Positions 25,882-52,207 of a stretch of DNA of 64,000 bases are shown here, piece after piece; position 1 is the stretch's first letter, and each line of letters begins with the position of its first letter. This DNA is from Paracoccaceae bacterium. Lineage in GTDB: Bacteria; Pseudomonadota; Alphaproteobacteria; Rhodobacterales; Rhodobacteraceae. The translations under genes and the position numbers were made by a program. The stretch is from contig JAIXZY010000024.1 in NCBI GenBank assembly GCA_027489355.1, positions 1-64,000 on the forward strand, read 5' to 3'. The notes beneath the pieces were generated by a model. That model ran no database searches, was not told the DNA's origin, and saw nothing but the letters and a program-made list of their open reading frames with translations.

Positions 25882-26466
25882 TCAGGTGTTGAGGTTGAAG
25901 AAGGCGCGAACGGCGATGGCGATATCGGTTGTGACCTGGCCCAGGTCTATCTTGGTCTCCGACGCGCCGAAGCGGATGTAGACCTGCCCGTCCGGCATGG
26001 TCGGCTCTTCGTCGATCACCATGGGCAGACCCGTGGCCTGGGTCAGCAGATCCTCGACCTGCGCGCGCACCGCGGGGTTCAGGACCAGGGTCAGCGGCGC
26101 GTCGGCAAGCTCGTCCGCCAGCGGCATCACGGCGTCCAGCACGGTCGGAGCAAGCGCCTCGCGTGCCACCTCGGGAAGCAGGCGGTTGACCATCTCCAGG
26201 ATCAGCGGCTTGATCGACTGCAGGACATGGCTCCGCGCGTCCTGGAAGGTGAAGGACAGGCTTTGCAGGTTGCGCGCCAGGTCGGCCCTGATCCTGCCCT
26301 GATCGCCCTGCTGGGCGGCCACCGCATCATCCCAGCCGGCAGAATAGCCCTGCTCGAACGAAGCAACCTTCGCCTCCTCGACCGCCGTTGCCTCGACCAG
26401 CGGCTGCATCGACCCATCTGCCGCAGGGGCGGTGTCGAACACCTCAAGGCGCAGCGCCGGCATCAC
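25882..26466 (-). CDS. FliH-like flagellar export regulator
   Basis: A 194-aa helical protein between fliF and fliN. A coiled-coil N-terminal half (EEAKVASFEQGYSAGWDDAVAAQ has the FliH-type GYxxGW feature) is followed by a domain resembling the FliH/YscL C-terminus. By position and shape it would be the stator that regulates the export ATPase FliI. Primary-sequence similarity is low, so this rests partly on gene order. Overlaps fliF by four bases. Confidence 0.65.
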   Translation of the reverse strand: MMPALRLEVFDTAPAADGSMQPLVEATAVEEAKVASFEQGYSAGWDDAVAAQQGDQGRIRADLARNLQSLSFTFQDARSHVLQSIKPLILEMVNRLLPEVAREALAPTVLDAVMPLADELADAPLTLVLNPAVRAQVEDLLTQATGLPMVIDEEPTMPDGQVYIRFGASETKIDLGQVTTDIAIAVRAFFNLNT

Positions 26467-35387: not shown

Positions 35388-36056
35388 ATGACTTTTGCGG
35401 ATCTCAGATTGAGCATCGCGATCATCGACGGCAACCCGTTGCTCGCCGACGGAATTGCCGCGCTTTTGCGTCAGGATCCCAGTTTTACCGCGCGGACCGA
35501 GTTCCTTGGATCGGGCCTTGGGCAGTCCCAGCCGGACCGGTTCGACGTGGTGATCATCGACCCGGCGCAACTGGAGACCTCGCCCGGCCAGCTTGCGCAG
35601 GACCTGCGGCAGCGGGCGGGTGCGATGGTGGCCTATTGCAGCTCGCTTTCCGAGGACCTGGCGCGTGCCTGCATCGGCGCCGGCTTCCACGGCGTGCTGC
35701 CCAAGACCGTTTCCTTCGACGTGCTGAAGATCGCCCTGGCCACGACGGCCCGGGGCGGCATCTTCATCGATGCAGCCTTTGCGGCGGCGATCGCACCCCA
35801 GGCGGGTGCCGAAGACCCTCCGCCAGCCCCCGCCCAGGACGCGCGGCTATCCGCGCGAGAGCTGTTCGTGCTGAAATCGGTGGCATTGGGCAAGTCGATG
35901 AAGGAAATCGGCAAGGAACTTGCCTTGTCCTCAAAGACGGTCGAGACCTACAAGGCCCGGGGCAGCAGCAAGCTGAACCTCTCGGGGCGCCGGCAGATCG
36001 TGGAATTTGCCATCTCGCAAGGTTGGGTCGAGGGCACCCGCCTCACCGCCGGCTGA
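35388..36056 (+). CDS. NarL/LuxR-type response regulator next to the alg operon
   Basis: A 222-aa regulator with a receiver-like domain (about 8-120) and a GerE/LuxR helix-turn-helix ([21 protein letters not shown], first part, then [19 protein letters not shown]). The putative phospho-acceptor Asp is in VVIIDPAQ, the Thr/Ser in AYCSSLS and the Lys in GVLPKTVS, so phosphorylation remains possible, but the N-terminal acidic pair is reduced to a single Asp (IAIIDGN). No cognate kinase is adjacent. It lies 285 bases upstream of algD on the same strand and is the obvious candidate regulator of that operon. The start is the ATG at 35388 after GAGG. Confidence 0.85.
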
Positions 36057-36162
36057 GAAAACCGCCGGCCTTCAACAGGTTCTGGAAAACCGCCGGCGAT
36101 GGCGGCAAGACCACCTTCGCACCCGCAGAAACGCCTGACAGGAAAAACCTTACACCGCCGGT
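36045..36162. repeat. Four ACCGCCGG direct repeats upstream of algD
   Basis: ACCGCCGGC occurs at 36045, 36061 and 36089 and ACCGCCGGT at 36154. The copies at 36057-36069 and 36085-36097 extend to the identical 13-mer GAAAACCGCCGGC, 28 bases apart. The first copy overlaps the end of the regulator gene. In a GC-rich genome short matches are cheap, but the clustering ahead of algD suggests operator sites. Confidence 0.4.
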
Positions 36163-36175
36163 TTAGGCTGTCAGG
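36134..36175. promoter_or_regulatory. Inverted repeat in the algD leader
   Basis: CCTGACAG (36134-36141) and CTGTCAGG (36168-36175) are perfect 8-bp arms separated by 26 bases that include AAACC and GGTTT inner arms. It may be a hairpin ending the regulator transcript, an attenuator, or an operator. No T-tract follows. The rest of the 285-base gap (to 36341) shows a TTGACC at 36197 but no convincing -10. Confidence 0.4.
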
Positions 36176-36341
36176 ATCAACCCGTCCTGTAGGGACTTGA
36201 CCCGACAAAACGTCCGGAAAATCGGGGTTTTTCCCTGACTTTTCCATCTTTTGCGACCGTGCCTACCCTGTTTCCGGGAAGCTGCGCTGCGGCATGCGGC
36301 GCGGGAGTTACGGCCTTGTGCCGGGGAAGAGGATTGACGGA

Positions 36342-37661
36342 ATGACACGACTTGCAGTGTTTGGAATCGGCTATGTCGGCGTGGTCTCGGCAGCCTGCCT
36401 GGCCCGGGACGGCCATCAGGTCATTGCGGTGGACGTGGACCCGGCCAAGGTTGGGGCGATCAACGCGGGGCGGTCGCCCATCGTCGAGAAAGGTCTGCCC
36501 GACCTGATCGCCCAGGTGGTCGGCGAAGGCCGGCTGACCGCGACGACGGATGCGCGGGCGGCCGTTCACGGCACCGACGCCTCGTTCGTCTGCGTCGGCA
36601 CCCCCAGCGCGCCGGATCACTCGATCGGGCTGACCTATGTGACCGCGGTCTGCGAGGAGATCGGGCGCGCGCTGGCCGGTCACCCCGGCTTCCACTCGGT
36701 CATCCTGCGGTCGACCATCGTGCCGGGGACGATGGAGCGGGTCTGCGTCCCGATCCTGGAACGCGCCTCGGGCAAGGTCGCCGGGCGGGACTTCGGCGTA
36801 GGCTACTACCCGGAGTTCCTGCGCGAAAGCTCGGCCATCCAGGATTATGCCGACCCCGGACTGATCGTCTTCGGGGCGCTGGATTCGGCGACGGGGGCGC
36901 TTCTGACCGAGCTGAACCGCGATCTCCCCTGCGAGATCAACCTGGTCGACCTCGCGACGGCCGAGATGGTGAAATACACCTCGAACGCCTGGCGGGCGGT
37001 CAAGGTCAGCTTTGCCAACGAGATCGGGAACATTGCCAAGGCGGCCGGGTTGGATGGCCAGCGGGTCATGTCGATCCTGTGTTCGGATCACAAGGTTTCC
37101 ATGAGCCCCACCTTCCTGCGCCCCGGCTTTGCCTTCGGGGGGTCCTGCCTGCCCAAGGATGTGCGGGCGCTGCGGGCCTTTGCGGCGGAACGCCGGGTCG
37201 CCTCGCCGCTGCTGGATGCCGTGCTGGTGGCCAACGCCGCGCAGATCGCCCGGGCCGAGGAGATGATCCATGCCTCGGGCAAGACGCGGATCGGGATGGT
37301 GGGGATCAGCTTCAAGCCGGGCACGGACGACCTGCGCGAAAGCCCGCTGGCCGAACTGGCCAGCCGCCTGATCGGGCGCGGGATGCAGCTGTCGGTCTAC
37401 GACCCCTTCGTCCACGAGGCCTTCGCCAACGACAATACGGCGGTCGGCCGCGGGCTGGACCAGGATATCGCGCTGGGAAGCCGTCTGGTCGGCTCGATCG
37501 ACGAGCTGATCGAGGGGTCGGACATCGTCCTGGTGGGCAACCGATATGACGAGGCGATCCAGCCGCTCCAGGCGGCGCTGGGCAACCGCCCGATGGTCGA
37601 CCTGACCCGGATCAAGCCGGGCCAGCGGTCGGAAGGCACCTACATGGGGATCTGCTGGTGA
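36342..37661 (+). CDS. algD: GDP-mannose 6-dehydrogenase AlgD
   Basis: AlgD oxidises GDP-mannose to GDP-mannuronic acid with NAD+, the committed step of alginate synthesis. The 439-aa protein has the NAD motif FGIGYVGVVSAACLARDGH, CVGTPSAPD, the catalytic Cys269 in FGGSCLPKDVRAL, and the family segments YYPEFLRESSAIQDY and FANEIGNIAKAAGLDG that match Pseudomonas AlgD better than UDP-glucose dehydrogenases. It ends GICW exactly as Pseudomonas AlgD does. The ATG at 36342 puts the Rossmann strand at the start; an in-frame start at 36294 is less likely. First gene of the operon; its stop overlaps the alg8 start by one base. Confidence 0.93.
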   Translation: MTRLAVFGIGYVGVVSAACLARDGHQVIAVDVDPAKVGAINAGRSPIVEKGLPDLIAQVVGEGRLTATTDARAAVHGTDASFVCVGTPSAPDHSIGLTYVTAVCEEIGRALAGHPGFHSVILRSTIVPGTMERVCVPILERASGKVAGRDFGVGYYPEFLRESSAIQDYADPGLIVFGALDSATGALLTELNRDLPCEINLVDLATAEMVKYTSNAWRAVKVSFANEIGNIAKAAGLDGQRVMSILCSDHKVSMSPTFLRPGFAFGGSCLPKDVRALRAFAAERRVASPLLDAVLVANAAQIARAEEMIHASGKTRIGMVGISFKPGTDDLRESPLAELASRLIGRGMQLSVYDPFVHEAFANDNTAVGRGLDQDIALGSRLVGSIDELIEGSDIVLVGNRYDEAIQPLQAALGNRPMVDLTRIKPGQRSEGTYMGICW

Positions 37662-39133
37662 TGACCCGGCCGCCTCTCATCCTGGGCCATGTGCTTTACC
37701 TGGCGGTGCTGGCGCTTCTGGTGCTGAGCATACCTCCGGGGGCGCTGGGCCATGTCTCGGACGGGCTGATCGTGGTCGGTGTGGTCGGGGCCTGGCGCTA
37801 TGGCTGGGCGGCGGTCAACTACCTGCGGGCGATGGCCTATACGCGACTGGCCTATCCACGGCTTAAGGCGCGCGCGCTGGCTGCACATGCCGCCCTGCCC
37901 CTGCGGGGCCACGCCTATTTCCTGATCACCAGCTACAAGATCGAGCCCGAGACCACCCGCCGCGTCTACCACGCACTGTTCCGTGCGGCGGCGGCGGCCG
38001 AGGGCGGCGCGACCGTCGTGGCGTCCGTCGTGGACAGCGCGGACCTGCGGCTGATCCAGCGCATTCACGCACTGATGGATGTGGACATGGCGGGGGTCCG
38101 GCTGGTTGTCGACCAGATTCCCGGTACCGGCAAGCGCGATGCGCTGGCCCGGTCCCTGCGGCTGATCGGCCGCCAGGCGCCGTCGCAACGCGACATCCTG
38201 CTTCTCGTCGATGGCGACAGCTGCGTGCCGGAGGACATCGTCGCGGCGACGGCCCCGTTCTTCACCGATCCCTCCGTCGGCGCCTTGACCACGGACGAGG
38301 CCGCCGAGATCCGGCCCAGCCTCTTTGCCGACTGGTTCGCCCTGCGCTTCACCCAGCGGCAGATGATGATGAGCTCGATGGGTCTGTCCGGCCGCGTGCT
38401 GACACTGACCGGCCGCATGTCCGTCTTCCGCGCGGACCTGGCGACGCAGCCCGAGTTCATCCGGCTTGTCCAGCACGACCACATCGACCACTGGCGACTG
38501 GGGCGCGTCGACTTCCTGACCGGGGACGACAAGTCGACCTGGTTCTGGCTGCTCCAGCGCGGCTACAGGATGCTCTATCTGCCGGATGTGACCTCGGTTT
38601 CGCTGGAAAGCCAGCCGCTGCCGGGCTTTGCGGACAGCGCGATCACGCTGATGATCCGCTGGTTCGGCAACATGCTGCGCACCAACGGGCGCGCCCTGTC
38701 GCTGGGGCCGCGGCGGATCGGGCTGTTCACCTGGTGGTCGATCCTGGACCAGAAGCTGGGCATCTGGACCACGCTCGCCGGTCCGATCTCGGTCGCGCTG
38801 GCGGCGCTGTTCGTCGAGCCGCTGGTGATCCCGGCCTACATCGCCTGGGTCATGGCGACCCGCTACGCCTTCTGCTGGGTGCTTGCCACCGTGCGCGGGC
38901 GGGGCTTCCCGATCACCTATCCGCTGCTTCTGTACTTTGGCCAGATCGTCGGCGCCGCGGTGAAAAGCTACGTGCTCTTCCGCCTCGACCGGCAGCGCTG
39001 GACCCGCCAATCCACCGGCGTTGCGGTCCCGGCCCTTGGCGAGCGGCTGCGCGCCATCGGCTCGACCTATGTGCATGTCCTTGCCCTCGGCTGGCTGACC
39101 TTCGGGGTCATGCTGCTGTCGGGGCTTGTCTGA
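37661..39133 (+). CDS. alg8: Alginate polymerase catalytic subunit Alg8
   Basis: A 490-aa GT2 family membrane glycosyltransferase that would polymerise GDP-mannuronate and pass the chain through the inner membrane. Two N-terminal helices, a cytoplasmic GT domain with D184-G-D186, the acceptor-site motif LTGDDKSTWFWLL and the TGRMSVFRADLA segment, then C-terminal helices. The segments LGPRRIGLFTWWSILDQKLGIWTT (first part) and LLLYFGQIVGAAVKSYV resemble Pseudomonas Alg8. The ATG at 37661 shares its A with the algD stop; a GTG one codon earlier is possible. The classic QxxRW of cellulose synthases is replaced by MIRWFGNMLR as in Alg8. Confidence 0.92.
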   Translation: MTRPPLILGHVLYLAVLALLVLSIPPGALGHVSDGLIVVGVVGAWRYGWAAVNYLRAMAYTRLAYPRLKARALAAHAALPLRGHAYFLITSYKIEPETTRRVYHALFRAAAAAEGGATVVASVVDSADLRLIQRIHALMDVDMAGVRLVVDQIPGTGKRDALARSLRLIGRQAPSQRDILLLVDGDSCVPEDIVAATAPFFTDPSVGALTTDEAAEIRPSLFADWFALRFTQRQMMMSSMGLSGRVLTLTGRMSVFRADLATQPEFIRLVQHDHIDHWRLGRVDFLTGDDKSTWFWLLQRGYRMLYLPDVTSVSLESQPLPGFADSAITLMIRWFGNMLRTNGRALSLGPRRIGLFTWWSILDQKLGIWTTLAGPISVALAALFVEPLVIPAYIAWVMATRYAFCWVLATVRGRGFPITYPLLLYFGQIVGAAVKSYVLFRLDRQRWTRQSTGVAVPALGERLRAIGSTYVHVLALGWLTFGVMLLSGLV

Positions 39134-39157
39134 AACCCTATCCGAAAGGACCGACCC

Positions 39158-40249
39158 TTGGACCAGGCTATCACCACACAGACCCGCCAAAGTCCGGCAG
39201 CCCACGGCTGGGGCGGCCCGGCCGACCACCCGATGCTGGACATCCCCTTCCACGTCGAGATCGACGGGCGGCAGTACAAGGGCCGCGAGATTTCGCTGGT
39301 GCGGGCCACGGTCAGCGGGTTGATCGACCCGCACATGCAGGGGCTGGAGCGTATCGCCTGGGTGGTCTTCCGCTTTCAGGGCTACACCGTCGGCCTGTCG
39401 ATCGAGGTCCGCCTGGACGAGGTTGACGCCGCGAAGGGCCTGGCGACGCTGGTGTTCCTGGAGCCGATGGGCGAGCACCTGCCGCAACTGCGCCACCTGA
39501 TGAACGCCTATATCGCCGGGGATCTGGTGACGCTGGGCAATGTCCTGGCGGTGCGCCAGTCGGCCGCGGCCAAGCCCAAGGCAGGGCCTGCGCCGGGACG
39601 GGCCGCACGGCGCTTTGGCGGGACGCTGATGCTGCTGGCGCTGACGGTGCTGCTGCTGGGTCTGGTGGGGGCAAAGGTGTTCCAGCGGGTCTTCACGCAC
39701 CGTCTGGCAACACCGGCGGTGGTCGGGTTCGAGGGCCGCACGCTGGCGGCCACGGCCACGGGCCAGATCGACTATCTCGACCCTCAGGCGAAGGCGGGCG
39801 AGGTCGCCTTCGCGATCCGGTCGAACACCGGGCAGGCGCTTTCCGTGGTGATGCCCTGCGATTGCCGGGTCGAGATGCTGGGCGTCGAGGCCGGGTCCAC
39901 CGTCTTTGCCGGCGATCCGGTGCTGCGCGTGTCCGACTCGGATGCGCCGGTGATCCTGAGCGGAAACGTCCTGCCCGAGGAGATGCTGGACTTTGCCCGC
40001 GCCAGCGCCGTCGACCTTCGCTTCGCCGACGGGGCGCGGGTGACTGCGACCCTTGCGCCCGAGGGTCTGGGTTCTGCCGCGCCGGGCGAGGCCGTGCCCT
40101 TCCGCCTGGTCCCCGACCAGCCCCTGACCGAGGACCGCGCTGGACAACTGGCCGAAGTCACCCTGCGCCGCCCCCTTCCTGCTGCTGCCGATGCCATCGC
40201 GGGCATCGCCACCTTCTTTACCCTCAATGAAAAGGCAGAATCGCCATGA
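39158..40249 (+). CDS. alg44: Alginate copolymerase Alg44 with a degenerate PilZ domain
   Basis: A 363-aa protein with the Alg44 layout: N-terminal PilZ-like domain (about 26-118), one membrane helix (155-177) and a periplasmic HlyD-like domain with PCDCRVEMLGVEAGSTVFAGD (233 onward), closely resembling the SPCDCRVV region of Pseudomonas Alg44. In Pseudomonas, c-di-GMP binding by RxxxR and DxSxxG (D44, S46, G49) activates polymerisation. Here no RxxxR precedes the domain and the second motif reads E44-I-S46-L-V-R49, so the Asp and Gly are lost. Binding of c-di-GMP is therefore doubtful. Separated by 24 bases from alg8; its stop overlaps algA (ATGA). Confidence 0.9.
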   Translation: MDQAITTQTRQSPAAHGWGGPADHPMLDIPFHVEIDGRQYKGREISLVRATVSGLIDPHMQGLERIAWVVFRFQGYTVGLSIEVRLDEVDAAKGLATLVFLEPMGEHLPQLRHLMNAYIAGDLVTLGNVLAVRQSAAAKPKAGPAPGRAARRFGGTLMLLALTVLLLGLVGAKVFQRVFTHRLATPAVVGFEGRTLAATATGQIDYLDPQAKAGEVAFAIRSNTGQALSVVMPCDCRVEMLGVEAGSTVFAGDPVLRVSDSDAPVILSGNVLPEEMLDFARASAVDLRFADGARVTATLAPEGLGSAAPGEAVPFRLVPDQPLTEDRAGQLAEVTLRRPLPAAADAIAGIATFFTLNEKAESP

Positions 40250-41700
40250 TGCAGTGCATCACTCCCGTCGTCCTTTGCGGCGGCATGGGGTCCCGTCTCT
40301 GGCCGATGAGCCGGGTCGAGCAGCCCAAGCAGTTCCAGCCGACGCAAGGAAAGGGCAGCCTGACCTATTTCCAGGCCACGCTGCAGCGCCACCGCGGGCC
40401 GGACTTCGGCCAGCCCATCGTGGTGACCAACGCCAACCAGGCGGCGCTGGTCCACAAGCAGCTGGATGACCTGCAGCTTCAGGGCCAGGTGATCGGGGAA
40501 CCCGTGGGCCGGAACACCGGGCCCGCGGTGCTGGCCGCCGCGATCTCGGCCCAGCGGCAGGACCGCGATGCGCTGATCCTGGTGCTGCCCTCGGACCACA
40601 TGATCAAGGGCAACATCAACCGGATCATCCGGTCGATGCGTCCGGCGGCGGGCGAGGGGCGGATCGTCAGCTTCGGCGTGGTCCCGACCTATCCCGAGAC
40701 AGGCTACGGCTACATCACCGACGGCGGGGCCTTCGCGGATTATCCCGGGCTGCATCAGGTGGCGCAGTTCGTGGAAAAGCCGGGCTACGACCACGCCCGG
40801 CGGCTGATCGAGGCAGGCGGAGCGTTCTGGGCCTCGGGCATCAGCCTGATGCGGGCCGAAACGCTGATCGAGGAGTTCCGCCGCCTGGACCCCGTGACCC
40901 ATGCCGCCGTGACGGCCGCCCTCGACGGGGCCGAGTTGCGGACGCTGGGGATCGTCCTGGACGAGGAAAACTTTCGCCAGGCGGCGAACGAGCCGACTGA
41001 GCGTCAGGTCTTCGAACGAACGCCTGCCATCGCGCTGGCCCCGCTGCACGGGGTGGAATGGGACGACGTCGGGGCCTGGAACGCGGTCTACAAGATCGCC
41101 GACCGCGACCCGGACGGGAACGTGCTGCATGGCGACGTGATCGCGATGAACACCCAGAACTCGCTGGTGCAAAGCGAGACCCGGCTGGTCGCGGTGATCG
41201 GCATGCAGGACACCGTGGTGATCGACACGCCGGACGCCGTGCTGGTCACGAAACGCGCCCATTCGCAGGACGTGAAGCAGCTGGTGGACAAGCTGAAGGC
41301 GGGCCACCGGCGCGAGGTGCGGACGCATACCACGCGCGAGATGCCCTGGGGCCGGATCGAGACGGTCGCCAGCGAGATGGGCAACGACATGCGGATCATG
41401 ACGGTGCAGAAGCGCGCCTCGCTGCAGGTCAACGGCACTGGGCTGGGGCCGAGCCTTCTGACGGTGCTCTCGGGCGAGGGCTGCTGCCTGATCGACGGCG
41501 AGGAGGTGGTGGTGCGCCGCGGCCAGACCATCGCCATCGAACCGGACGAGGCGCTTCCGCTGACCAACGCGTCCGATGCCGAGTTGAAGCTGGTGCATCT
41601 GGTGTTCCGCGGCGCGGCGGAGGTCGGCGCCCCGGTGACGGGGGCCGAGCCTTCGCCACCGCTGCAGGCGGCACAGCGCCGGTTGCCGGAGGCCATCTGA
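40246..41700 (+). CDS. algA: AlgA-type mannose-1-phosphate guanylyltransferase with degenerate isomerase domain
   Basis: A 484-aa protein colinear with bifunctional PMI-GMP enzymes. The guanylyltransferase half is intact: CGGMGSRLWPMSRVEQPKQF at the N-terminus, EPVGRNTGPAVLAAA, VLPSDHMI, FVEKPGYDHA. The C-terminal cupin half, which in AlgA isomerises fructose-6-phosphate with metal bound by QxHHHRxEHW, reads Q394-VNGTGLGP402, without any His, and the later PHR motif is also missing. It should supply GDP-mannose to AlgD but not mannose-6-phosphate, which must come from another enzyme. The overlap with alg44 (ATGA) and the one-base overlap with the next gene indicate tight coupling. Confidence 0.9.
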   Translation: MMQCITPVVLCGGMGSRLWPMSRVEQPKQFQPTQGKGSLTYFQATLQRHRGPDFGQPIVVTNANQAALVHKQLDDLQLQGQVIGEPVGRNTGPAVLAAAISAQRQDRDALILVLPSDHMIKGNINRIIRSMRPAAGEGRIVSFGVVPTYPETGYGYITDGGAFADYPGLHQVAQFVEKPGYDHARRLIEAGGAFWASGISLMRAETLIEEFRRLDPVTHAAVTAALDGAELRTLGIVLDEENFRQAANEPTERQVFERTPAIALAPLHGVEWDDVGAWNAVYKIADRDPDGNVLHGDVIAMNTQNSLVQSETRLVAVIGMQDTVVIDTPDAVLVTKRAHSQDVKQLVDKLKAGHRREVRTHTTREMPWGRIETVASEMGNDMRIMTVQKRASLQVNGTGLGPSLLTVLSGEGCCLIDGEEVVVRRGQTIAIEPDEALPLTNASDAELKLVHLVFRGAAEVGAPVTGAEPSPPLQAAQRRLPEAI

Positions 41701-43127
41701 TGCGCTTGCTGACCTCGATCCTGGCCGTCCTCGCCCTGGCCTGCCCCCTGCGGGCAGAGTCGGACGCGATCCTGCACGGGGCGATTGCCCGCGTGCTGAA
41801 GGACGGCCGGGATGGCGAGGTGCTGGCGGTTCTGGCCGACCGGCTAGCGGGTGGGGTGACCCTGCCCGAGGTGGCCGGCGGGGCCGAGGTCACGGACGAG
41901 CCGATGAAGGTGCTGGAAGGGGACATCCAGGCCGCGCTGACGCAACTGGCGATCCTCGCCGGGGGCAACGGACACCTGTCCCTGCAACTGGCGCAGGCCA
42001 GCACGAAGGACGTGATCTACCTCTTGTCCGGCCGGGCCACCCTGTCGGGGCTGGAGGCGGCGGGCTACCTTCAGCGCCGGGCGAACGGCTGGCGGCTGTC
42101 GCGGCCGCTGGTCCTCTGGCCCGGTGCGGCGCTGGTCCTTGCGCCGGGAGAGCTGCTGGAGCTCGACACTGCCGCAGGGGCCTTTGTCCTGAGCTTCGGC
42201 GATGTCCGCGTTACCCGCGCCACCCTGCGCGGCGATGGAGGAGAGAACCCCCGTGTGCCGCAGTTCCGGCCGTTTCTTCTGGTCACGGGTCAGGGCAGCT
42301 TCCGTGCCGAACGGTCCACCTTCGCCGACCTGGGCTTCGACGGACCCGTGGCCTTCCGCGGGGTGTCGGTGCTGACCGGTGGGCTGATGAAACCCGCCTT
42401 GTCCCCGGTGGTAGAGCGCAATCGCTTTCAGAACGTGTTCAGCCTGTCCTTCGAGGGTGGAGACGGTCTGGTCCTAAGCCGGAACCGCATCGCCGGAGCC
42501 GGGGCAGCGGCGGTCTCGGTCAAGGACGGGCGCGGCATGGTGCTGGCCGGAAACCGGATCGGCCATACGGACAGCGGGGCGGGCATCCGCCTTTCCGGGA
42601 CGCTGCAGGATGTGGTGATCGCGGGCAACGTCATCTCCGGCGGGGCGCGCAACGGTCTGCAGATCGACGGCAAGGCGCAGCGGCTTGGTCTGCGCGGCAA
42701 TGTCATTCTTGACAACGACGGGTCCGGTGTAAGCCTCGGGCCGGCCACCTGCGTCGCTGTGCAGGGCAACATCATTGCCGGGAACGGCACCGCGGGCCTG
42801 CGGCTGACCCGGTCCGGGTCGGCGAGGATCGCTGACAATGCCGTGCTGGACAATGGCTCGGCCGGGATCGAGGTCGAGGCGCAGTCGGGGCTTGGCCCGG
42901 TCCTCTTGTCCGACAACGTCCTGCGCGGCAACCGCGAGGGCCTGCGCGCCGCCGGTCTGGGCGAGGTGCGCCTGTCCGGCAACGACCTGGCCAACCAGAC
43001 CCCGCGCCAGTTCGCCGGGGATTTCTCGCCTTGGCTTGGACCCTATCTCAGCGCGGGCGACGGCCTGGTGATCCCGGCCGCGATCACCGCCGACCCCGTT
43101 TCCCCCGATCCGTGTCAACCGGAGTAG
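41700..43127 (+). CDS. algG: AlgG-like periplasmic beta-helix protein lacking the DPHD epimerase motif
   Basis: A 475-aa exported protein (signal LLTSILAVLALACPLRAES). The N-terminal region matches AlgG in pattern (SRPLVLWPGAALVLAPGELL, FRPFLLVTGQGSF), then come right-handed parallel beta-helix repeats from about residue 230 to 440 (GLVLSRNRIAG, GMVLAGNRIG, VVIAGNVISGG and so on). AlgG converts mannuronate to guluronate in the polymer with a DPHD catalytic motif. Aligning by the preceding SPVVERNRFQNVFSLSF segment, DPHD is replaced by S273-V-K-D276; no DPHD occurs elsewhere. It may be a structural member of the export complex or use other residues. Five bases before algI. Confidence 0.75.
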   Translation: MRLLTSILAVLALACPLRAESDAILHGAIARVLKDGRDGEVLAVLADRLAGGVTLPEVAGGAEVTDEPMKVLEGDIQAALTQLAILAGGNGHLSLQLAQASTKDVIYLLSGRATLSGLEAAGYLQRRANGWRLSRPLVLWPGAALVLAPGELLELDTAAGAFVLSFGDVRVTRATLRGDGGENPRVPQFRPFLLVTGQGSFRAERSTFADLGFDGPVAFRGVSVLTGGLMKPALSPVVERNRFQNVFSLSFEGGDGLVLSRNRIAGAGAAAVSVKDGRGMVLAGNRIGHTDSGAGIRLSGTLQDVVIAGNVISGGARNGLQIDGKAQRLGLRGNVILDNDGSGVSLGPATCVAVQGNIIAGNGTAGLRLTRSGSARIADNAVLDNGSAGIEVEAQSGLGPVLLSDNVLRGNREGLRAAGLGEVRLSGNDLANQTPRQFAGDFSPWLGPYLSAGDGLVIPAAITADPVSPDPCQPE

Positions 43128-43131
43128 CCCG

Positions 43132-44562: not shown

Positions 44563-44570
44563 GTGGTCCC

Positions 44571-45650
44571 ATGCAGTTCATCCTTCGCCATGCGCGCTAT
44601 GCGCTGCCCGTCGCCTTCTTCACCTACGCGGCGATCTTCAACCTGGGCTACGCCCGTTTCCCCGGTGCCGACGAGGTGCCGACCGACCGAACCGCGCTGA
44701 CCGGCGCGCTGACGGCGAAGCTGGACGAGACCTACCGCAAGTCCTTGCCGCACCGCGACGGGGCTATCGGGATGATGGGCGCGCTGCGCTACCTGGCGGT
44801 CGGCGAGGGGCGCAAGGGCGTGGTGACCGGAACGGACGGCTGGCTTTTCACCGCCGAAGAGGTGCGCCCGCTGACCGACGACCTGGACAGCTCGCTTGCC
44901 CGCATCGCGCGGATCAGCGGCCAGCTGGAGGCGGCGGGGGCGCGGCTGGTGATCGTCCCGGTGCCGGGCAAGCTGGACGTGCACGTCGCCCATGCCGACG
45001 CCGAGACGGCAAAAGGGATCGCCACGCTGTACGACGCCTTCCTGTCCGGGTTGCAGGACCGGGACATCCCCGTCCTCGACAGCCGCGACGCGCTCCGGGT
45101 CGACGCCGCCCGCGATGTAGCGTTCTTCCGCACCGACACCCACTGGACCCCGGTCGGGGCCGAGCATGTGGCGCGGGCGCTGGCCGCATCGGGGCTGGTG
45201 GAACAGGGCGAGACCGAGTTCGGGATCTTTACCAGCGCGCCGGTGGAGTTCACTGGCGATCTCGTGTCGTTCGTCACCAGCGACCGGCTGGCGCCGCTGG
45301 TCGGGTTCCAGCCCGAAACGGCGACGCCCTATACCGTTTCCCCCAAGGCCGGGGGCGATGCGCTGGACATCTTTGCGGGGACCGAGGCCGGAGCGACACT
45401 GCTGATCGGCACCTCGTATTCCGCCAACCCGACGTTCAGCTTCGCCGAGGCGCTGAAGCTCGCGCTGCGCCGCGATGTGCTGAACCTGGCGGTCGAGGGC
45501 AGGGGACCGGCGCAACCGATGCTGGACTATCTGCGGTCTGCCGATTTCCGCGACGCCCCGCCCGAGCTGGTGATCTGGGAATTCCCGGTGCGCTATCTGA
45601 CTGACCCCGCGCTGTGGGATGCGCAAGGCCCGGTGAAGAGCGGTGCTTAG
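44571..45650 (+). CDS. algJ: Alginate O-acetyltransferase AlgJ (SGNH hydrolase-like)
   Basis: A 359-aa membrane-anchored periplasmic protein with an N-terminal helix (ALPVAFFTYAAIFNLGY) and an AlgX/AlgJ-type SGNH domain. The catalytic triad positions are D189 and H191 in TDTHWTPVGAEHV and Ser282 in LIGTSYSANP. It would relay acetyl groups from AlgI. The ATG at 44571 is 8 bases after algI; the overlapping end with the next gene is 8 bases. The last motif, VIWEFPVRYL, matches the family end. Confidence 0.92.
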   Translation: MQFILRHARYALPVAFFTYAAIFNLGYARFPGADEVPTDRTALTGALTAKLDETYRKSLPHRDGAIGMMGALRYLAVGEGRKGVVTGTDGWLFTAEEVRPLTDDLDSSLARIARISGQLEAAGARLVIVPVPGKLDVHVAHADAETAKGIATLYDAFLSGLQDRDIPVLDSRDALRVDAARDVAFFRTDTHWTPVGAEHVARALAASGLVEQGETEFGIFTSAPVEFTGDLVSFVTSDRLAPLVGFQPETATPYTVSPKAGGDALDIFAGTEAGATLLIGTSYSANPTFSFAEALKLALRRDVLNLAVEGRGPAQPMLDYLRSADFRDAPPELVIWEFPVRYLTDPALWDAQGPVKSGA

Positions 45651-46416
45651 GCTGGCCCATATCGGCCTGGCACTGGCCCTGGGCATTGCTGCCCCGGTGG
45701 CGGCAGACGTCGTGCTGCCGCCGGGGATCGCGGCAAGCCCGGCGCTGAAGTCGCTGCGCAAGTCGATGCTGGCAGGGACCGAGCTGTCGGACGTCCAGCT
45801 TCAGCGCCTGGCCGACGCGGGCGAGGGCCTGGCCGCGGCCCGCTATGCCAAGCGGCTGGAGGAACGCCGCGATCCGGCATTCATCGACGACGCGGCGCAC
45901 TACTATTCCATCGCCGTCTACCAGGGCCGCGACTTCGCGCTGCCGCGCCTTCTGGCGACGCTGACCGACAAGACGGCCGAGTTCGGTCCGGGCCGGCTGC
46001 GGAACATCCGCGGCGTCCTGGAACGCGCGGCGCGGCGGGGCGATGCCAAGGCCGCCGCGGGCCTGGCCGAGATCCTGCTGGCCGGCGCGCCCTTCGACCC
46101 CGACATTCCCCGCGCGCGGGAGTTGCTCTTGGTTGCGGCGCAGGGTGGCGACACCAAGGCCGCGATGAAGCTCGCGCTCAGCCATATCCAGGGTGAACCG
46201 GGCCTGCCCCCCGACCCCGAAGCTGCCCGCCCCGCGCTGGAATACGCGCTGGCCAGCCCCGACCCCGGGGTGCGGGCCATGGCCCTGGCTCTGGCCAAGC
46301 AGATTCCCGGCGGGGAAGAGCTGCAAGCCGCAGCAACGCCCCCGGCGGACCCCGCCGACCTTGACCGCAGCAAGCGCCCGCCCATGCGGCCCGCCCTGGA
46401 AGGAGACGCCCCATGA
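45643..46416 (+). CDS. Exported Sel1/TPR-like protein between algJ and algX
   Basis: A 257-aa protein with a signal peptide (IGLALALGIAAPVAAD) and about four to five helical Sel1-like repeats (for example AGEGLAAARYAKRLEERR, RGDAKAAAGLAEILLAG, GGDTKAAMKLALSHIQG). It has no lipobox Cys. Its place inside the operon suggests a periplasmic scaffold, taking part of the role of AlgK, the TPR lipoprotein that joins the alginate periplasmic complex to the outer-membrane porin. The start is a GTG at 45643 overlapping algJ by 8 bases; the stop overlaps algX (ATGA). Function inferred only from fold and position. Confidence 0.72.
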   Translation: MLRLAHIGLALALGIAAPVAADVVLPPGIAASPALKSLRKSMLAGTELSDVQLQRLADAGEGLAAARYAKRLEERRDPAFIDDAAHYYSIAVYQGRDFALPRLLATLTDKTAEFGPGRLRNIRGVLERAARRGDAKAAAGLAEILLAGAPFDPDIPRARELLLVAAQGGDTKAAMKLALSHIQGEPGLPPDPEAARPALEYALASPDPGVRAMALALAKQIPGGEELQAAATPPADPADLDRSKRPPMRPALEGDAP

Positions 46417-47798
46417 TGCGCCCCGTGTTCGCCCTCTGCCTTCTCATCGCCCCGGCCGCCCACGCCGGGCCGTCGCAGTTCGGCTGCGCCAACACCGAAT
46501 TCGCCCCCTCGGCCAGCATCGAGGGCAAGGACGGCGTCTTCTACCGCGTCCAGTCCGACCTGCGGCTTCAGCACCCGATGGACGATGCCGTCGTGGCACA
46601 GCTGGCCGAACTGACCCGCGTCCTGGCCGAGCAGGGGACCACACTGGTCTATGTGAACGTTCCCACCAAGGGCCAGGCCATGCCGCAGTACCTGCCGCCC
46701 GAGGCCACGGCCTACGGCTATGACCCGGCGCTGATGCAGGCCAACTACAAGGACGTCACCGACCGCCTGAACGCCGCCGGAGTTCCCGCGCCCGACCTGA
46801 TGACCGCGATGCTGAAGGCCGGCCCGGACGAGAAGGTCTTCTTCCAGGCCGACTTCCACTGGACCCCGTCGGGCGCCCGGCTCGCGGCCCAGGCCATCGG
46901 CGAGATGATCCGCAGCCTGCCCGCCTATGCCGACGTGACGCCGGTCAAGTTCACCTCACAAGAGGCGGCGCCCGAGATCGCCTTCTCGGGCCTTCGGCGC
47001 GAGTTGCAGACCTACTGCAAGGACACCCTGCCCGAGGTCAAGGCCACCACCTGGCAGACGACGCGTGCCACCGACGGGGACCTTTCTGCCGCCGACATCT
47101 TCGCCGATGCGGGCGCGTCCGAGGCTGCTGCCCCCGACGAAGCCGCCGCCGATCCGGCCGCCGGAGAGCCGCTGGACATCTTCGGCACCGGGGGCGCCGA
47201 GGCCAGCCTGGTGCTGGTCGGCACTTCGTTTTCCGACAGCAGCATCAACAACTTCGCGGGATTCCTGTCCGAATATGCCGGGATCGAGGCGGTGAACTAC
47301 GCCATCACCGGCGGCAACCAGTTCGGCTCGATGACCTCGTACCTGACCTCGCGCGATTTCGCACAGAACCGGCCGACCTTCGTGGTATGGGAAAACCCGA
47401 TCTACAACAGCCTGGCCCAGTTCGGCCCGGTCCCGATGGACGAGTTGATCGTCGCTGCCGGTCCTGCCTGCGACATCGCCACGGGGGCCGCGGTCGAGGA
47501 CAACACCCTTGCCGCGACCTTCCAGCCCGGCCAGCTGAAACCCCAGGATGCCTTCCTGTTCGACCAGGGCAGCGAAGGCGCGCGGGTGGCGACAGTGACC
47601 TTCGAGACGGGGTCCGGCATCAGCCGGTCGCTGCGGATCGAACGGTCGGACCGACTGCGTGCCACCGGCCGCTTCTTCCTGAAACTCGAACCGTACTGGC
47701 AGCCCGACTTGGTGAAGGTGACCGTCCGCTTCGACCGGCCGCTGACCGACAGCTCTGCCCTGACCCTTTGTCCAACCCAGAAAGGAGACGCGTCATGA
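46413..47798 (+). CDS. algX: Alginate O-acetyltransferase AlgX
   Basis: A 461-aa periplasmic protein (signal FALCLLIAPAAHAGP; Pseudomonas AlgX is 474 aa). The SGNH domain carries D147 and H149 in ADFHWTPSGARL and Ser272 in LVGTSFSDSSIN; a C-terminal beta-rich carbohydrate-binding module follows from about residue 345. AlgX binds the polymer and performs the terminal acetyl transfer. A 25-residue Ala/Asp/Glu-rich insertion (around 228-252) interrupts the SGNH domain. Coupled by ATGA overlaps to both the preceding and the following gene. Confidence 0.92.
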   Translation: MMRPVFALCLLIAPAAHAGPSQFGCANTEFAPSASIEGKDGVFYRVQSDLRLQHPMDDAVVAQLAELTRVLAEQGTTLVYVNVPTKGQAMPQYLPPEATAYGYDPALMQANYKDVTDRLNAAGVPAPDLMTAMLKAGPDEKVFFQADFHWTPSGARLAAQAIGEMIRSLPAYADVTPVKFTSQEAAPEIAFSGLRRELQTYCKDTLPEVKATTWQTTRATDGDLSAADIFADAGASEAAAPDEAAADPAAGEPLDIFGTGGAEASLVLVGTSFSDSSINNFAGFLSEYAGIEAVNYAITGGNQFGSMTSYLTSRDFAQNRPTFVVWENPIYNSLAQFGPVPMDELIVAAGPACDIATGAAVEDNTLAATFQPGQLKPQDAFLFDQGSEGARVATVTFETGSGISRSLRIERSDRLRATGRFFLKLEPYWQPDLVKVTVRFDRPLTDSSALTLCPTQKGDAS

Positions 47799-48424
47799 AA
47801 CGCATCCACCTGACCCTCCCGTTCCTTGCCCTTGCGGCCTCGGCCGCGCTGGCGCAGGACGCCAGCCTTTATGAGGACGTGGCCAACCCCGATGCGAGCT
47901 TTGTCCGCGTCGTGGACCCCACGGCCTCGGTCGCGGTGATCCAGTCGGCCAGCTTTGACCGGGTGGAAAAGGGGGTCACGCCCTATGTGGTGATCGACGG
48001 CGCCAGCGAGGTGAACATCAGTGCCGGCGAGACTTCGGCCACGGAACAGGTGCAGCCGGCGACCTTCTATTCCTTCGTCGTCGGGGCGGACGGCACCTCA
48101 GCGCTTGTGGTCGACAAGATCACCCGCAACCCGGCCCAGGCCGACGTGACCTTCTACAACCTTTCGGACATCGCCTCGGCCGATCTTTACGTTCCGCAGG
48201 CCAAGGCCGTGGCAATCGAGGGCGTGGCCCCGAACAGCGGCGGCGCCGTGGCGCTGAAAGCCCCGCTGACGCTGGATTTCGAGATCCGCGATGGCGAGAC
48301 CGCCGTCGCCACCGTTCCGGCGGTCGACCTGAAGCGCCGCGAAGGCGTCGCCATCGTCCTGTCCGGCACCGGAGGCAGCTACACCGCCACCGTGACGCCG
48401 AACGCCCTGGCCAAACAGCCCTGA
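47795..48424 (+). CDS. algF: Alginate O-acetylation protein AlgF
   Basis: A 209-aa exported protein (signal LPFLALAASAALAQD) made of two beta-sandwich-like halves. The beginning of the mature part, DASLYEDVANPDASFVRVVD, resembles the ALYGP-APKGSTFVRLYN start of Pseudomonas AlgF (216 aa), and the C-terminal GEAV-like RREGVAIVLSGTGGSY also matches. AlgF supports AlgJ/AlgX in acetylation. ATGA overlap with algX; 13 bases before the 909-aa gene. Confidence 0.87.
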   Translation: MKRIHLTLPFLALAASAALAQDASLYEDVANPDASFVRVVDPTASVAVIQSASFDRVEKGVTPYVVIDGASEVNISAGETSATEQVQPATFYSFVVGADGTSALVVDKITRNPAQADVTFYNLSDIASADLYVPQAKAVAIEGVAPNSGGAVALKAPLTLDFEIRDGETAVATVPAVDLKRREGVAIVLSGTGGSYTATVTPNALAKQP

Positions 48425-48437
48425 AGGGACCCTGACC

Positions 48438-51167
48438 ATGCAGCGCATCCTCGCCACACTCCTGATCCTCGCCCTGCCCGTCGCGGCGGGGGCGCAGACG
48501 GTGGACCTGGTGTTCGAACCGCCCGAGCTGGAAACCGGCCCGGTCTGCGAACCCCGGCCTTCTGACGAGGCGCTGGTCGCGAAATGGAAGGGCGTTTCTC
48601 CCGACGCCCGTCCCGAGACGGACACGGCGATCATCAAGCGCGACTTCCGCCGCCTGATCGAGATGGACCCCCAGGGCTGGTTCGACACGGTCAGTTCCGT
48701 GCAGGAACGGTTCCGCCAGATCGACCCGCAGTATTCCGAGGCTAACCTCCTGATCGACCGGATCGAGCTGCTGCTTGCCGTCGGACGGGTGGCCGATGTG
48801 CAGAAAGAGCGGCTGATCGACCAGCTCTCGGCACTGGACCTGCGCCAGACCCCGCGTGCGCAACAGCTGCTGGCGGGCTACCTGATCCGGGGTATCGGCG
48901 TGCCGAAGGACGTGGAACGCGGCGAGGCGCTGCTGCTGCAGGCCGGGTTCGGCGGCAATGCGGACGCGATCCTGCAACTCGTGGAACGCGAGATCCAGGG
49001 CAACCCGGTCAAGGGCTGGGACGTGCCGCCGGAACTGGGCGTGACGATGGCCTTCGGCGCGCTGGTCGGCAAGCTGGACCCGCTGATCTGCGACCGGGTG
49101 AACCGGATCGCGCGCGAATACATGAATGGCGATATCGTGACCCGCGACCCGGCGCTGGCGGAACGCTGGTACCGCTTCTCGGCCGATCTGGGGGACCCCC
49201 TGTCCGCCTGGCGCGTGGCCGAGATTCACTTGCGGGCCGAGGATCTGCCCAAGGACAACGAGGTGCTGATCCGCTACCTGACCGCCGCCGCCGATGCGGG
49301 CTTGCCCTATGCCCAGGTGGCCCTGGCGCGGCTTTACGCCGACGGCGCGCTGCTGCCGCGCGACCTTGAGCTTGCCGATGCCACCTATGACGCGGCGGGC
49401 GAGGTCTGGCCCTCGGGCGAGGCGAGCCATGTCCTGTTCCTTCAGGCCCAGTCCCGCCGCGATGCGGACTGGACCCCGCGATATGTCGAGGCGCTGTCCC
49501 ATCTGGTCCAGACGCCGGACGCCCCCGCCTGGGCGCTGATCGCGATGGCGGACCAGGTGATCGCCTCGAAGGGCCGCTGGGCCGGCGAGGCGGAGGCGCG
49601 GGAACTGCTGGATCGGGCCATCGCACTGGGCGAATACGCCGCGCTGGAGAAGACCGCGGCGATGAAATTCCGCGCCGCGCGGACGGCGCAGGACTTCTAC
49701 ACGGTGACGGACGAGTTGATGCAGACCGTCGCCTCCTCGGGCGAGGTCGATCCCATGCTGGAACTGTCGAATGCCTTCATCTGCCGTGCCCCGGACGCGC
49801 CGCAGGTCGAAGAGGCCGACTACTGGGTCAAGGTCGCGGAAAGCACCGCCTCGAAGGCCGTCGACTTCACCCCGGAAGAACTTGCGCGGCTGGCCGCCAC
49901 GCCGGACCCCATCGCCGAAGCCGAGATTCAGACCCAGGCCCTGACCGGCCGGATCACCGCCATCGCGCAGTACATGTACCTGCTGGAACAGCGCGGCGTG
50001 CCGGACGAAACGCTGGTCTTCTGGGACAGCTACGCGACCCGATTCCCCGGCGTGACCACGGCCCGCGCCTCGCTGGCGCTGAAGGCCGCCCGCAGCCCCG
50101 CCGCCCGCACCGCCGCGCTGGACATGTTCCGCAAGGCCGTGGCGATGGGCGAGCCCTCGGCCGGTACCCAGTTCGCCGAGGCGCTTCTGGAAGAGGAGTA
50201 CGCCACGCCCGAAAGCCAGGCCGAGGCGCTGGGCATCCTGTTGCCGCTGGCCGACCGCGGGATCGGCGACGCGCTGGCGATGCTGCCGCTGGCCGACCCG
50301 CAAAGCTTCCCCGACCTTGCCGCGGTGATGGATCGGTACGGCGAGGTCGTGGATGCCCGCGGGGATTTTGACGCCCTTCTGCTGGCCCTGCCGCTGATCA
50401 GTGACCGCACCGTCTATGCCGACTACCTGACCCGTGCGACCTCGATCACCGCCTGCACCTTCGACGAGGCGCTGCGGCTCACCGACGCCGTGGGCCGGGC
50501 CGGGGACCGGGCGCTTTTCGAACGCTGGCTGCGCATCTCGGACTACCTGGCGGGCGGCGAAGGCTATGCGCTGGCCGAACTGGCGGATGTCTACAGCCGC
50601 TATGCCACCGACGCCGACCAGCCGAAGATCCTGGCTTATTACGAGGCCGCGCGCGCCGAGGGCAGCCGAATCGCGATCCACCGGCTTCTCAACATCTACT
50701 CCCGCCGCTCGGCGCCGCAGTACGACCCGCAAGCGTCGGCGGCGCTGTTCGAGGATCTCGTCCGCTTCAGCGCGCCCGAGGACCTGCCCGGCACGCTGGC
50801 CCGCCTTCGGGCCGCAACGCCGGAAATCCGCGCCATCGCCGGCAAGACCATCGATGAGACCGCGCTTTACCTGGCGGCGGCCGAATCCGGCAGCGGGGTT
50901 GCGATGCGGGAATACGCCCTGATCCTGCGCAAGACCGCCACGACCCCGGCGCAGGTGCTGGAATCAACCGACTGGCTCCGCCGCGCCGCCGAGGCGGGCG
51001 AACCCGCCGCAATGATCGACTATGCCGAGGCTCTGGTCTTCGGCATCGGCACCACCCCCTCGCGCGACGAGGCGCTGGCCTGGCTACAGAAGGCCGCCGA
51101 CCTTGGCAGCGACGAGGCCGCGCAACGCCTGCGCTCAATGCAACTCTCGACGGAGGCCAGCCAATGA
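48438..51167 (+). CDS. Large exported Sel1-repeat protein, AlgK-like candidate
   Basis: A 909-aa protein with a signal peptide (ILATLLILALPVAAGAQ, no lipobox Cys) and Sel1-like alpha repeats spread through its length, for example DPLSAWRVAEIHLRA, AGLPYAQVALARLYADGALL and, near the end, AGEPAAMIDYAEALVFGIG followed by SRDEALAWLQKAADLGSDEA. It is roughly twice as long as Pseudomonas AlgK. In the absence of an AlgK lipoprotein and AlgE porin in the locus, this is the best candidate for the trans-periplasmic scaffold. Overlaps the algL-like gene by four bases (ATGA). Confidence 0.75.
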   Translation: MQRILATLLILALPVAAGAQTVDLVFEPPELETGPVCEPRPSDEALVAKWKGVSPDARPETDTAIIKRDFRRLIEMDPQGWFDTVSSVQERFRQIDPQYSEANLLIDRIELLLAVGRVADVQKERLIDQLSALDLRQTPRAQQLLAGYLIRGIGVPKDVERGEALLLQAGFGGNADAILQLVEREIQGNPVKGWDVPPELGVTMAFGALVGKLDPLICDRVNRIAREYMNGDIVTRDPALAERWYRFSADLGDPLSAWRVAEIHLRAEDLPKDNEVLIRYLTAAADAGLPYAQVALARLYADGALLPRDLELADATYDAAGEVWPSGEASHVLFLQAQSRRDADWTPRYVEALSHLVQTPDAPAWALIAMADQVIASKGRWAGEAEARELLDRAIALGEYAALEKTAAMKFRAARTAQDFYTVTDELMQTVASSGEVDPMLELSNAFICRAPDAPQVEEADYWVKVAESTASKAVDFTPEELARLAATPDPIAEAEIQTQALTGRITAIAQYMYLLEQRGVPDETLVFWDSYATRFPGVTTARASLALKAARSPAARTAALDMFRKAVAMGEPSAGTQFAEALLEEEYATPESQAEALGILLPLADRGIGDALAMLPLADPQSFPDLAAVMDRYGEVVDARGDFDALLLALPLISDRTVYADYLTRATSITACTFDEALRLTDAVGRAGDRALFERWLRISDYLAGGEGYALAELADVYSRYATDADQPKILAYYEAARAEGSRIAIHRLLNIYSRRSAPQYDPQASAALFEDLVRFSAPEDLPGTLARLRAATPEIRAIAGKTIDETALYLAAAESGSGVAMREYALILRKTATTPAQVLESTDWLRRAAEAGEPAAMIDYAEALVFGIGTTPSRDEALAWLQKAADLGSDEAAQRLRSMQLSTEASQ

Positions 51168-52207
51168 CCCCGCGATCCCTTGTCCTTGTCCTGCTGCTGG
51201 CGACCCCGGTGGCCGCCGAGGATGCGCCGAAATGCCCGTCCGACGCGGCGCCCGTCGTCACGCTGGGCTTCGGCAGCCGCTACACAGACGACAGCAAGAA
51301 CCGCAGCGAGTTCGACGAGGAAGGCGACAAGGCCGTGACCGCGGCGCTGAAGCCGATCGACGACTTCATCGCCGATCTCGCGCGGCAGACGAACATCCTC
51401 AACGATCCGAAGACGAAGCCCGCGGATGCGCAGGAGGCAGCCGCCTGCGTGATGGAAAGCGTGCTTGCCTGGGCCAAGGCGGACGCGCTGAGCGATCTGC
51501 AGACCCAGGGTGCCAAGCTTTCCGCGCCCTCGCGGGTGGGAGGTATCGCATTTGCCTATGCGGCGGCGCTGAAGGTCCTTCCCGCGCCCGAGGGGCAGGA
51601 AGAGATCGAGGCCTGGCTGCTGGCCCGCGCGCGGCAGACGATGGCCTTCTTCGACACTGACGCCCCGCCCCGCGCCTCGCAGAACAACCTGCGCGCCTGG
51701 GCGGGACTGGCGGTAACGCGGGTGGGCCTGGTGCTGGAAGACCCTGCGCTGATCGACTGGGGGGCTGCATCTGCCGAGCTTGTGCTTTGCACCGCGGCCG
51801 AGGACGGCAGCCTGCCGAACGAGATGTGGCGCGGCAAGCTGGCGCTGCATTACCAGCTGCATGCCGTGGCCCCGCTCGTCACCACCGTCGCGCTGCTGAA
51901 GGATATGCGGCCCGAACTGGTCTCGACCTGCGACGACGCGCTTGCGCGGGTGGTCCGCTTCACCCTTGACGGGCTGGACGATCCTGCGGCCGTCGAGAAG
52001 ATCACCGGGAAGCCGCAGACCGTCGGCGGCAGCCGCAAGCCGCGCGACTTCGAACTGGCCTGGATTCCGGCCTACCTGGCCCTTGACCCCGATCCGCAGA
52101 TCGCGGAGCTGGTGGCAAAGGTCGAAGAGCTGGGCAATTCCAAACTGGGCGGCGACCAGCGCCTGCTCTGGCCCGTGGCGGTCGGGGCCGATCCGGCCGA
52201 TGGGTGA
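51164..52207 (+). CDS. algL: AlgL-like (PL5) protein with altered active site
   Basis: A 347-aa exported protein (signal SLVLVLLLATPVAAED) of the polysaccharide lyase 5 fold. The alpha-toroid segments NNLRAWAG and PNEMWRGKLALHYQLHA align with NNHSYWAAW and PNELKRRQRALAYHNYA of Pseudomonas AlgL. The spacing N175 to R223 (48) and R223 to Y230 (7) equals N201-R249-Y256 in AlgL. But the catalytic His (H202) is Leu176, and the Lys at K66 is Arg39 in SRY. Beta-elimination is therefore in doubt; it may bind polymer without cleaving, or act on a different uronan. Last gene of the operon. Confidence 0.8.
   Translation: MTPRSLVLVLLLATPVAAEDAPKCPSDAAPVVTLGFGSRYTDDSKNRSEFDEEGDKAVTAALKPIDDFIADLARQTNILNDPKTKPADAQEAAACVMESVLAWAKADALSDLQTQGAKLSAPSRVGGIAFAYAAALKVLPAPEGQEEIEAWLLARARQTMAFFDTDAPPRASQNNLRAWAGLAVTRVGLVLEDPALIDWGAASAELVLCTAAEDGSLPNEMWRGKLALHYQLHAVAPLVTTVALLKDMRPELVSTCDDALARVVRFTLDGLDDPAAVEKITGKPQTVGGSRKPRDFELAWIPAYLALDPDPQIAELVAKVEELGNSKLGGDQRLLWPVAVGADPADG

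Follow-up and report, generated by a model that had tools for sequence, protein, structure and literature searches.

In Pseudomonas and Azotobacter, the alginate operon has the order algD-8-44-K-E-G-X-L-I-J-F-A, an arrangement that was also seen in part in the comparator operons of this study. According to the accessible parts of a 2015 review (PMC4444821), every alginate-producing bacterium encodes AlgG and uses periplasmic lyases, and a natural mannuronan producer had yet to be identified; the polymannuronate makers described there are laboratory mutants that have an AlgG protein without epimerase activity. Bundalovic-Torma et al. (2020, PMC7112194), compared by text excerpts, also described rearranged alginate operons that lack algKE or some of the modification genes; in these excerpts deep-sea bacteria are named and active-site losses are not discussed, and an overlap with the bacteria considered here is possible. 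In this study, we analysed a stretch of 64,000 nucleotides (contig JAIXZY010000024.1; the window) from a Paracoccaceae bacterium, in which twelve plus-strand genes at 36342–52207 form an operon of the order algD-8-44-A-G-I-J-sel1a-X-F-sel1b-L. We believe, with a probability of roughly 60%, that this is a complete synthase-dependent operon that would make O-acetylated poly-beta-D-mannuronate without epimerisation to guluronate. The proposed product is like that of the laboratory AlgG mutants, whereas the carriers here are a natural clade.

The operon shares homologues of AlgD, Alg8, Alg44, AlgG, AlgX, AlgL, AlgI, AlgJ, AlgF and AlgA with the Pseudomonas and Azotobacter operon, and the acetylation triads and polymerase motifs are kept. 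In contrast, algA directly follows alg44, algL is the last gene, algE was not found, and a pair of Sel1 proteins, of 257 and 909 amino acids (aa), stands at the place of AlgK. The DPHD motif of AlgG, the catalytic His, Arg and Tyr of AlgL, the QxHxH motif of AlgA and the RxxxR motif of Alg44 are missing. Judged from sequence, the system would be alginate-like in its working and departs from the canonical one in four features, namely the AlgG motif, the AlgL residues, the Alg44 motif and AlgE. What is new here is that the operon falls within a single, well-supported Alg8 clade (by which we mean the sampled rows only) that has lost the signatures of AlgG, AlgL, the AlgA isomerase and Alg44 while keeping the genes. 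A sequence-only reading of the window had described several regulatory or modifying activities as apparently lost and acetylation and polymerisation as apparently intact, and the signatures agree with it residue by residue. It had placed the losses in this chromosome; they are real but not peculiar to it, being common to the sampled alphaproteobacterial clade. A literature search by titles and abstract openings, with few subscription papers, recognised no account of the clade or of the active-site losses, and the accessible part of the Yangia ND199 paper mentions one O-acetylation gene only.

The genes for precursor supply and polymerisation are of alginate type. The best PDB match of AlgD (36342–37661, plus strand, as are all genes of the operon) was GDP-mannose 6-dehydrogenase (1mfz, 8e-126), and its Cys motif GGSCLPKD is kept; this motif was found in 84/84 clade rows. 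Alg8, the glycosyltransferase family 2 (GT2) polymerase, occupies 37658–39133 with a GTG start at 37658 or an ATG start at 37661 (Pfam GT2 9.1e-31) and has DGD and TGDDKSTW; GDDKSTW was present in 86/86 rows, two of which lie outside the clade. No PDB sequence match was obtained for Alg8, and no useful one for Alg44. An Alg8 tree built from 105 rows separates the 84 clade rows from the others by a branch with support 100, and a further branch (support 96) sets the canonical alginate operons together with the clade apart from the rest, so that the window Alg8 is a GT2 of the canonical alginate Alg8 clade. The tree was built by a quick method with only Shimodaira–Hasegawa-like approximate likelihood ratio test support, and the program warned of long branches meeting, chiefly that of locus L165. 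This alphaproteobacterial operon, which has DPHD and NNH, is drawn as the sister of the clade, a placement that is unsure on its long branch.

An Alg8-family synthase might also act on an alginate chassis with another sugar nucleotide or linkage and make a different polymer. Homology to Alg8 is by itself not decisive for the polymer, as deeply divergent Alg8-like synthases of 30–42% identity occur in other Rhodobacterales, some with few alg genes around them, and the loss of the known modifying active sites is what a changed substrate would predict. This explanation nevertheless appears quite unlikely to us: AlgD is far closer to GDP-mannose 6-dehydrogenase than to the next match, UDP-glucose dehydrogenase (8e-126 versus 2e-68), algD and algA are in one operon, the Alg8 clade joins canonical alginate Alg8, and AlgF, AlgI, AlgJ and AlgX are all alginate-type. 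The sequence-only reading had named Alg8, Alg44 and AlgX as the proteins whose resemblance to non-alginate systems would undo it. Alg8 is placed by the tree with canonical alginate Alg8, the first structural matches of Alg44 are the alginate Alg44 PilZ domain and not other systems, and the PDB sequence matches of AlgX are all alginate-type.

AlgA (40246–41700) is a mannose-1-phosphate guanylyltransferase with a degenerate mannose-6-phosphate isomerase cupin. It keeps GGMGSRLWP, while QxHxH is absent in the window and in all sampled clade rows (0/78) and present in 11/11 comparators. Automatic annotation of this protein as an isomerase would probably mislead, because the NCBI model of the bifunctional enzyme (GMP/PMI, TIGR01479) is passed by about one bit (374.1 bits, cut-off 372.95) and the metal-binding motif is gone. 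When an isomerase in trans was sought in the window genome, PF01238 and PF07221 gave no match; two other proteins have the PF01050 isomerase domain with QxHxH, and therefore the isomerase half of AlgA may simply be redundant.

Alg44 (39158–40249) is the co-polymerase, with a PilZ fold, a membrane helix and a HlyD-like part. Its AlphaFold2 model (mean predicted local distance difference test score 86.4) had the P. aeruginosa Alg44 PilZ domain (4rt1/4rt0) as its first PDB matches. The PilZ fold is thus kept, and the motif RxxxR..[DN]xSxxG for cyclic dimeric guanosine monophosphate (c-di-GMP) is absent from the window and was found in 0/81 sampled clade rows; Alg44 of L028, which is also one of the 34 rows of alignment A4, is out of frame in the PilZ part, leaving at most 80 informative rows. 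The motif was present in 7/7 main comparator operons of family f67. Excerpts of PMC8461298 assign R17 and R21 of Alg44 to the canonical c-di-GMP site and report that Alg44 mutations that block binding abolish alginate production.

The AlgG-like protein (41700–43127) was predicted to fold as a right-handed beta-helix like AlgG. DPHD, in which the histidine probably abstracts the proton (PMC4444821, in part), is absent in the window and was found in 0/76 sampled clade rows, the His column being occupied by Arg, Lys, Ser and others. None of the columns in an alignment of 34 AlgG rows held an invariant or nearly invariant His, Lys, Arg, Tyr or Glu, and therefore a non-enzymatic role is favoured. 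DPHD was present in 8/12 comparators with an AlgG-like protein. A second AlgG was not found in the window genome at E 1e-3, a threshold at which the window's own AlgG was itself undetected. As a separate observation, L172 (genome G292) and L176 (G288) are second-type alginate operons with AlgIJFX in gammaproteobacteria-like genomes; both have intact AlgL NNH and Alg44 RxxxR with an AlgG lacking DPHD, and G292 also has a canonical operon with DPHD.

The AlgL-like protein (51164–52207) belongs to the PL5 family (Pfam Alginate_lyase 2.8e-24), and its gene was present in 43/43 genomes searched. Alignments with PDB AlgL showed that the catalytic His, Arg and Tyr are replaced by Leu, Leu and His, respectively, and that NNH, which 14/15 comparators have, is absent. 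The 52 rows of clade AlgL represent 50 genomes, since two genomes occur twice (L095 and L128; L089 and L130). The His202 column was Leu in 51/52 and His in 1/52 rows, the Tyr256 column was His in 51/51 and Tyr in 0/51, and the Arg249 column was Arg in 6/51. In the accessible part of a study on P. aeruginosa AlgL (PMC8829089), H202A, R249A and Y256F had no detectable activity in vitro, and in excerpts of another (PMC5099689), overproduction of H202A AlgL raised the alginate yield about three-fold. A second active lyase was not found, the sole PL5 match of the window genome being that of the operon itself.

Several points weigh against a mannuronan operon with inactive AlgG and AlgL. The AlgL pocket is conserved and partly new, with Asn in 52/52 rows, a new Arg two residues on in 51/52 and Tyr in 51/51; together with the His at the place of Tyr256, this polar set makes a remodelled active site possible, and the protein may be remodelled rather than dead. 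In P. aeruginosa, an active AlgL is required for viability during alginate production, with H202A tolerated there, as the same excerpts of PMC8829089 report. Four of the twelve comparators (L172, L176, L019 and L166) also lack DPHD, so the loss is not unique to the clade and therefore arose, or is ancestral, elsewhere too. Rhizobium tibeticum (L184, G090) has a second, DPHD-bearing AlgG on a contig other than that of its clade-type operon, and this one clade genome could still epimerise. AlgE was not found in the window genome by PF13372, with no true AlgE as a positive control, and there was no exporter candidate.

If the AlgG-like and AlgL-like proteins were still enzymes with remodelled sites, the product would be ordinary acetylated alginate of mannuronate and guluronate, with an active clearing lyase. 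The alternative polar set of AlgL, including the new Arg and the His that replaces the catalytic Tyr, would fit this, as would the purifying selection on both genes and the presence of AlgL in every genome searched. We think it unlikely, since the AlgG rows offer no nearly invariant His, Lys, Arg, Tyr or Glu and vary at the DPHD His, and since single changes at the three AlgL positions abolish detectable activity in vitro (PMC8829089, in part).

In the search for an export route, PF13372 matched in 2/38 genomes, one outside the clade (G046) and one of Salipiger mucosus (G093) on a contig other than that of its operon; among clade genomes this is 1/36, off the operon, and these counts likewise lack a true AlgE control. 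No co-conserved extra gene was found beside the operon, either among the window open reading frames (ORFs) outside it or in 20 stretches beyond algL, which held an ABC-transporter ATPase-like ORF group (9/20), read-through frames and Sel1b frames and, as far as example sequences go, no porin. The two AlgK candidates are Sel1a (45643–46416, 257 aa; Pfam Sel1 8.9e-5, below the cut-off) and Sel1b (48438–51167, 909 aa; Pfam Sel1 4e-20). A Sel1a profile gave weak scores of 18–34 bits against canonical AlgK-sized frames.

The acetylation set of the window carries its catalytic signatures. AlgI (43132–44562), a membrane-bound O-acetyltransferase (Pfam MBOAT 2.3e-28), has LWHG, a motif present in 60/62 clade rows (misses L032 and L044). 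AlgJ (44571–45650), an SGNH-like acetylesterase (Pfam ALGX 1.8e-64), has DTHW and GTSYS, each found in 60/62 clade rows; of the misses, L077 is 269 aa long, L047 lacks the Ser motif, and L094 is in fact an AlgX that was assigned wrongly. AlgX (46413–47798), the terminal acetyltransferase and scaffold, has an intact triad (DFHW, GTSFS), matched Pfam ALGX at 2.9e-48 and PDB AlgX at 3.2e-30, and had only AlgX and AlgJ as PDB sequence matches. AlgF (47795–48424) matched Pfam AlgF at 2.3e-9 (37.4 bits, cut-off 34.4).

Thirteen loci lack algI, algJ and algF in the stretch compared (L061, L068, L081, L086, L089, L091–L095, L097, L098 and L100), and L161 is a fourteenth; together with the truncated L088 they form one nested Alg8 group of 15 with support 100. 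In AlgX of this subclade, Arg stands in place of the triad His in 13/13 rows, and the Ser position is taken by Glu in eight rows, Asp in four and Ala in one, whereas the remaining rows have His in 59/59, L076 included, and Ser in 58/58. L076 itself (Cognatishimia sp. DT_16) has algD, alg8, algX, algF, sel1b and algL and misses the stretch from alg44 to sel1a, which is either a real deletion or an assembly fault. Studies on P. aeruginosa, seen as excerpts, have shown that D174, H176 and S269 of AlgX are required for O-acetylation (PMC4148444), and that deletion of AlgI, AlgJ or AlgF leaves secretion unaffected, only AlgX deletion affecting it (PMC9734138). In the subclade, the acetyl supply and AlgX catalysis have been lost and AlgX itself has been kept, as a scaffold role predicts.

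The Alg8 of the window was found in 8/32 genus genomes including the window's own, and the seven other loci carry all twelve genes in identical order, with algD cut by a contig end in L016. Three of the seven adjoin rpsT and four do not, and therefore the chromosomal site varies. Among 390 genomes drawn from the order, considered for Alg8 only, 24 had an Alg8 of at least 56% identity and the next ones had at most 42%. The scan of named genomes kept the best 80 of at least 591 stretches from at least 566 relatives and leans to near relatives; these 80 include Rhodobacterales and Rhizobiales (Rhizobium, Agrobacterium albertimagni, Devosia, Cohaesibacter and Roseibium). In all, 89 loci were compared; the counts exclude four duplicates (L021, L022, L023 and L053), and two further loci, L019 and L020, are not members of the clade. 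Gene order was conserved in nearly all sampled relatives with a long enough stretch, and this synteny extends over both taxonomic orders. Deeply divergent Alg8-like synthases (30–42% identity) with differing neighbours were also seen at L177, L178, L179 and other Rhodobacterales places; some of these carry relatives of AlgD, AlgA, AlgX, AlgJ and AlgI and possibly make other polymers.

A decaying or silent operon that accumulates losses would account for the patchy presence in the genus (Alg8 in 7/31 other genomes), for the several lost signatures and for the genus copy L018, in which alg8 is broken into two frames next to a stretch of Ns. Such decay is very improbable, as all twelve frames are open, genes and order are the same in two orders, and identical substitutions recur across the sampled clade, so that the losses are old. 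The ratio of nonsynonymous to synonymous substitution rates (dN/dS, own Nei-Gojobori script) was 0.09–0.30 when the twelve genes were compared with those of three genus relatives, with 0.15–0.20 for AlgG and 0.17–0.22 for AlgL; DnaA gave 0.06–0.09 against the two relatives whose stretch has DnaA. The degenerate parts are maintained under purifying selection.

The layout of the locus bore out the sequence-only reading in genes, strand, order and coordinates: twelve same-strand genes stand behind a LuxR-type regulator, its two unnamed genes are the Sel1-repeat proteins, its names for AlgD, AlgI, AlgJ, AlgX, AlgF and AlgL agree with Pfam (AlgI, AlgJ, AlgX, AlgF, AlgL) and PDB (AlgD, AlgX) matches, and the Rhodobacterales origin it gave fits Tabrizicola as the nearest named relatives. 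Overlaps at most junctions had been noted, and 7/11 junctions overlap by 1–8 nucleotides, the remaining four being gaps of 4, 8, 13 and 24. The algD start is probably 36342 and not 36294, since by eye the relatives align from 36342 and the upstream frame is closed in them. Beyond the operon end at 52207, the rpsT ORF (52360; Ribosomal_S20p) begins 152 bases on and dnaA is at 53154. The LuxR/NarL-type regulator gene (35388–36056, plus strand; Pfam GerE 7.2e-14) encodes a receiver-like domain (Response_reg 2e-5, 25.2 bits, under the Pfam cut-off of 30.2), and a homologue lies upstream in most compared loci. The intergenic promoter region (36057–36341) yielded no sigma-70-like promoter, with 1.2 expected. 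It carries palindromic words like CCTGwCAGG that recur upstream of algD in six genus relatives, as does a conserved GTGCCTACCCT stretch; these are candidate binding sites, noted by eye and without statistics. Flagellar genes lie upstream of the operon, where a 457-aa minus-strand frame (26463–27836) matches FliF C-terminal and YscJ/FliF and, weakly, flagellin N-terminal.

For the proposed mannuronan operon, we propose that AlgA, by its guanylyltransferase half only, and AlgD would supply GDP-mannuronate, mannose-6-phosphate isomerisation probably being left to other ManC-type proteins that the genome encodes. Alg8 and Alg44 would then build the chain from it, with no c-di-GMP gating by way of the known PilZ motif, and control would probably be transcriptional, through the LuxR-type gene. 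The AlgG-like helix, as a scaffold and not an enzyme, may form a periplasmic conduit with AlgX and the Sel1 proteins, in which AlgI, AlgJ, AlgF and AlgX would acetylate the chain. The AlgL-like protein would be inactive or work with an altered active site, and the polymer would exit by some outer-membrane route. For the clade as a whole, we see about even chances that it naturally makes non-epimerised mannuronan, with the pseudoenzymes AlgG, probably AlgL, the AlgA isomerase half and the Alg44 PilZ domain as a conserved scaffold, and with AlgX as a catalytically dead conduit in the subclade that lost AlgI, AlgJ and AlgF.

If this is true, it would be a natural separation of structural from catalytic roles in the alginate complex, with c-di-GMP-independent synthesis and AlgE-independent exit. 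The clade is a direct candidate for a natural mannuronan producer, in culturable environmental strains; its members include Tabrizicola soli and Marinovum algicola, the second of which belongs to the subclade that lacks algI, algJ and algF. A pure acetylated mannuronan would have material uses because guluronate content controls gelling. The subclade without algI, algJ and algF provides candidate natural AlgX pseudoenzymes. The finding also bears on the non-catalytic roles of AlgG and AlgX in the Pseudomonas system, and on whether Alg44 may activate Alg8 without the c-di-GMP that, in the excerpts of PMC8461298, is required in Pseudomonas.
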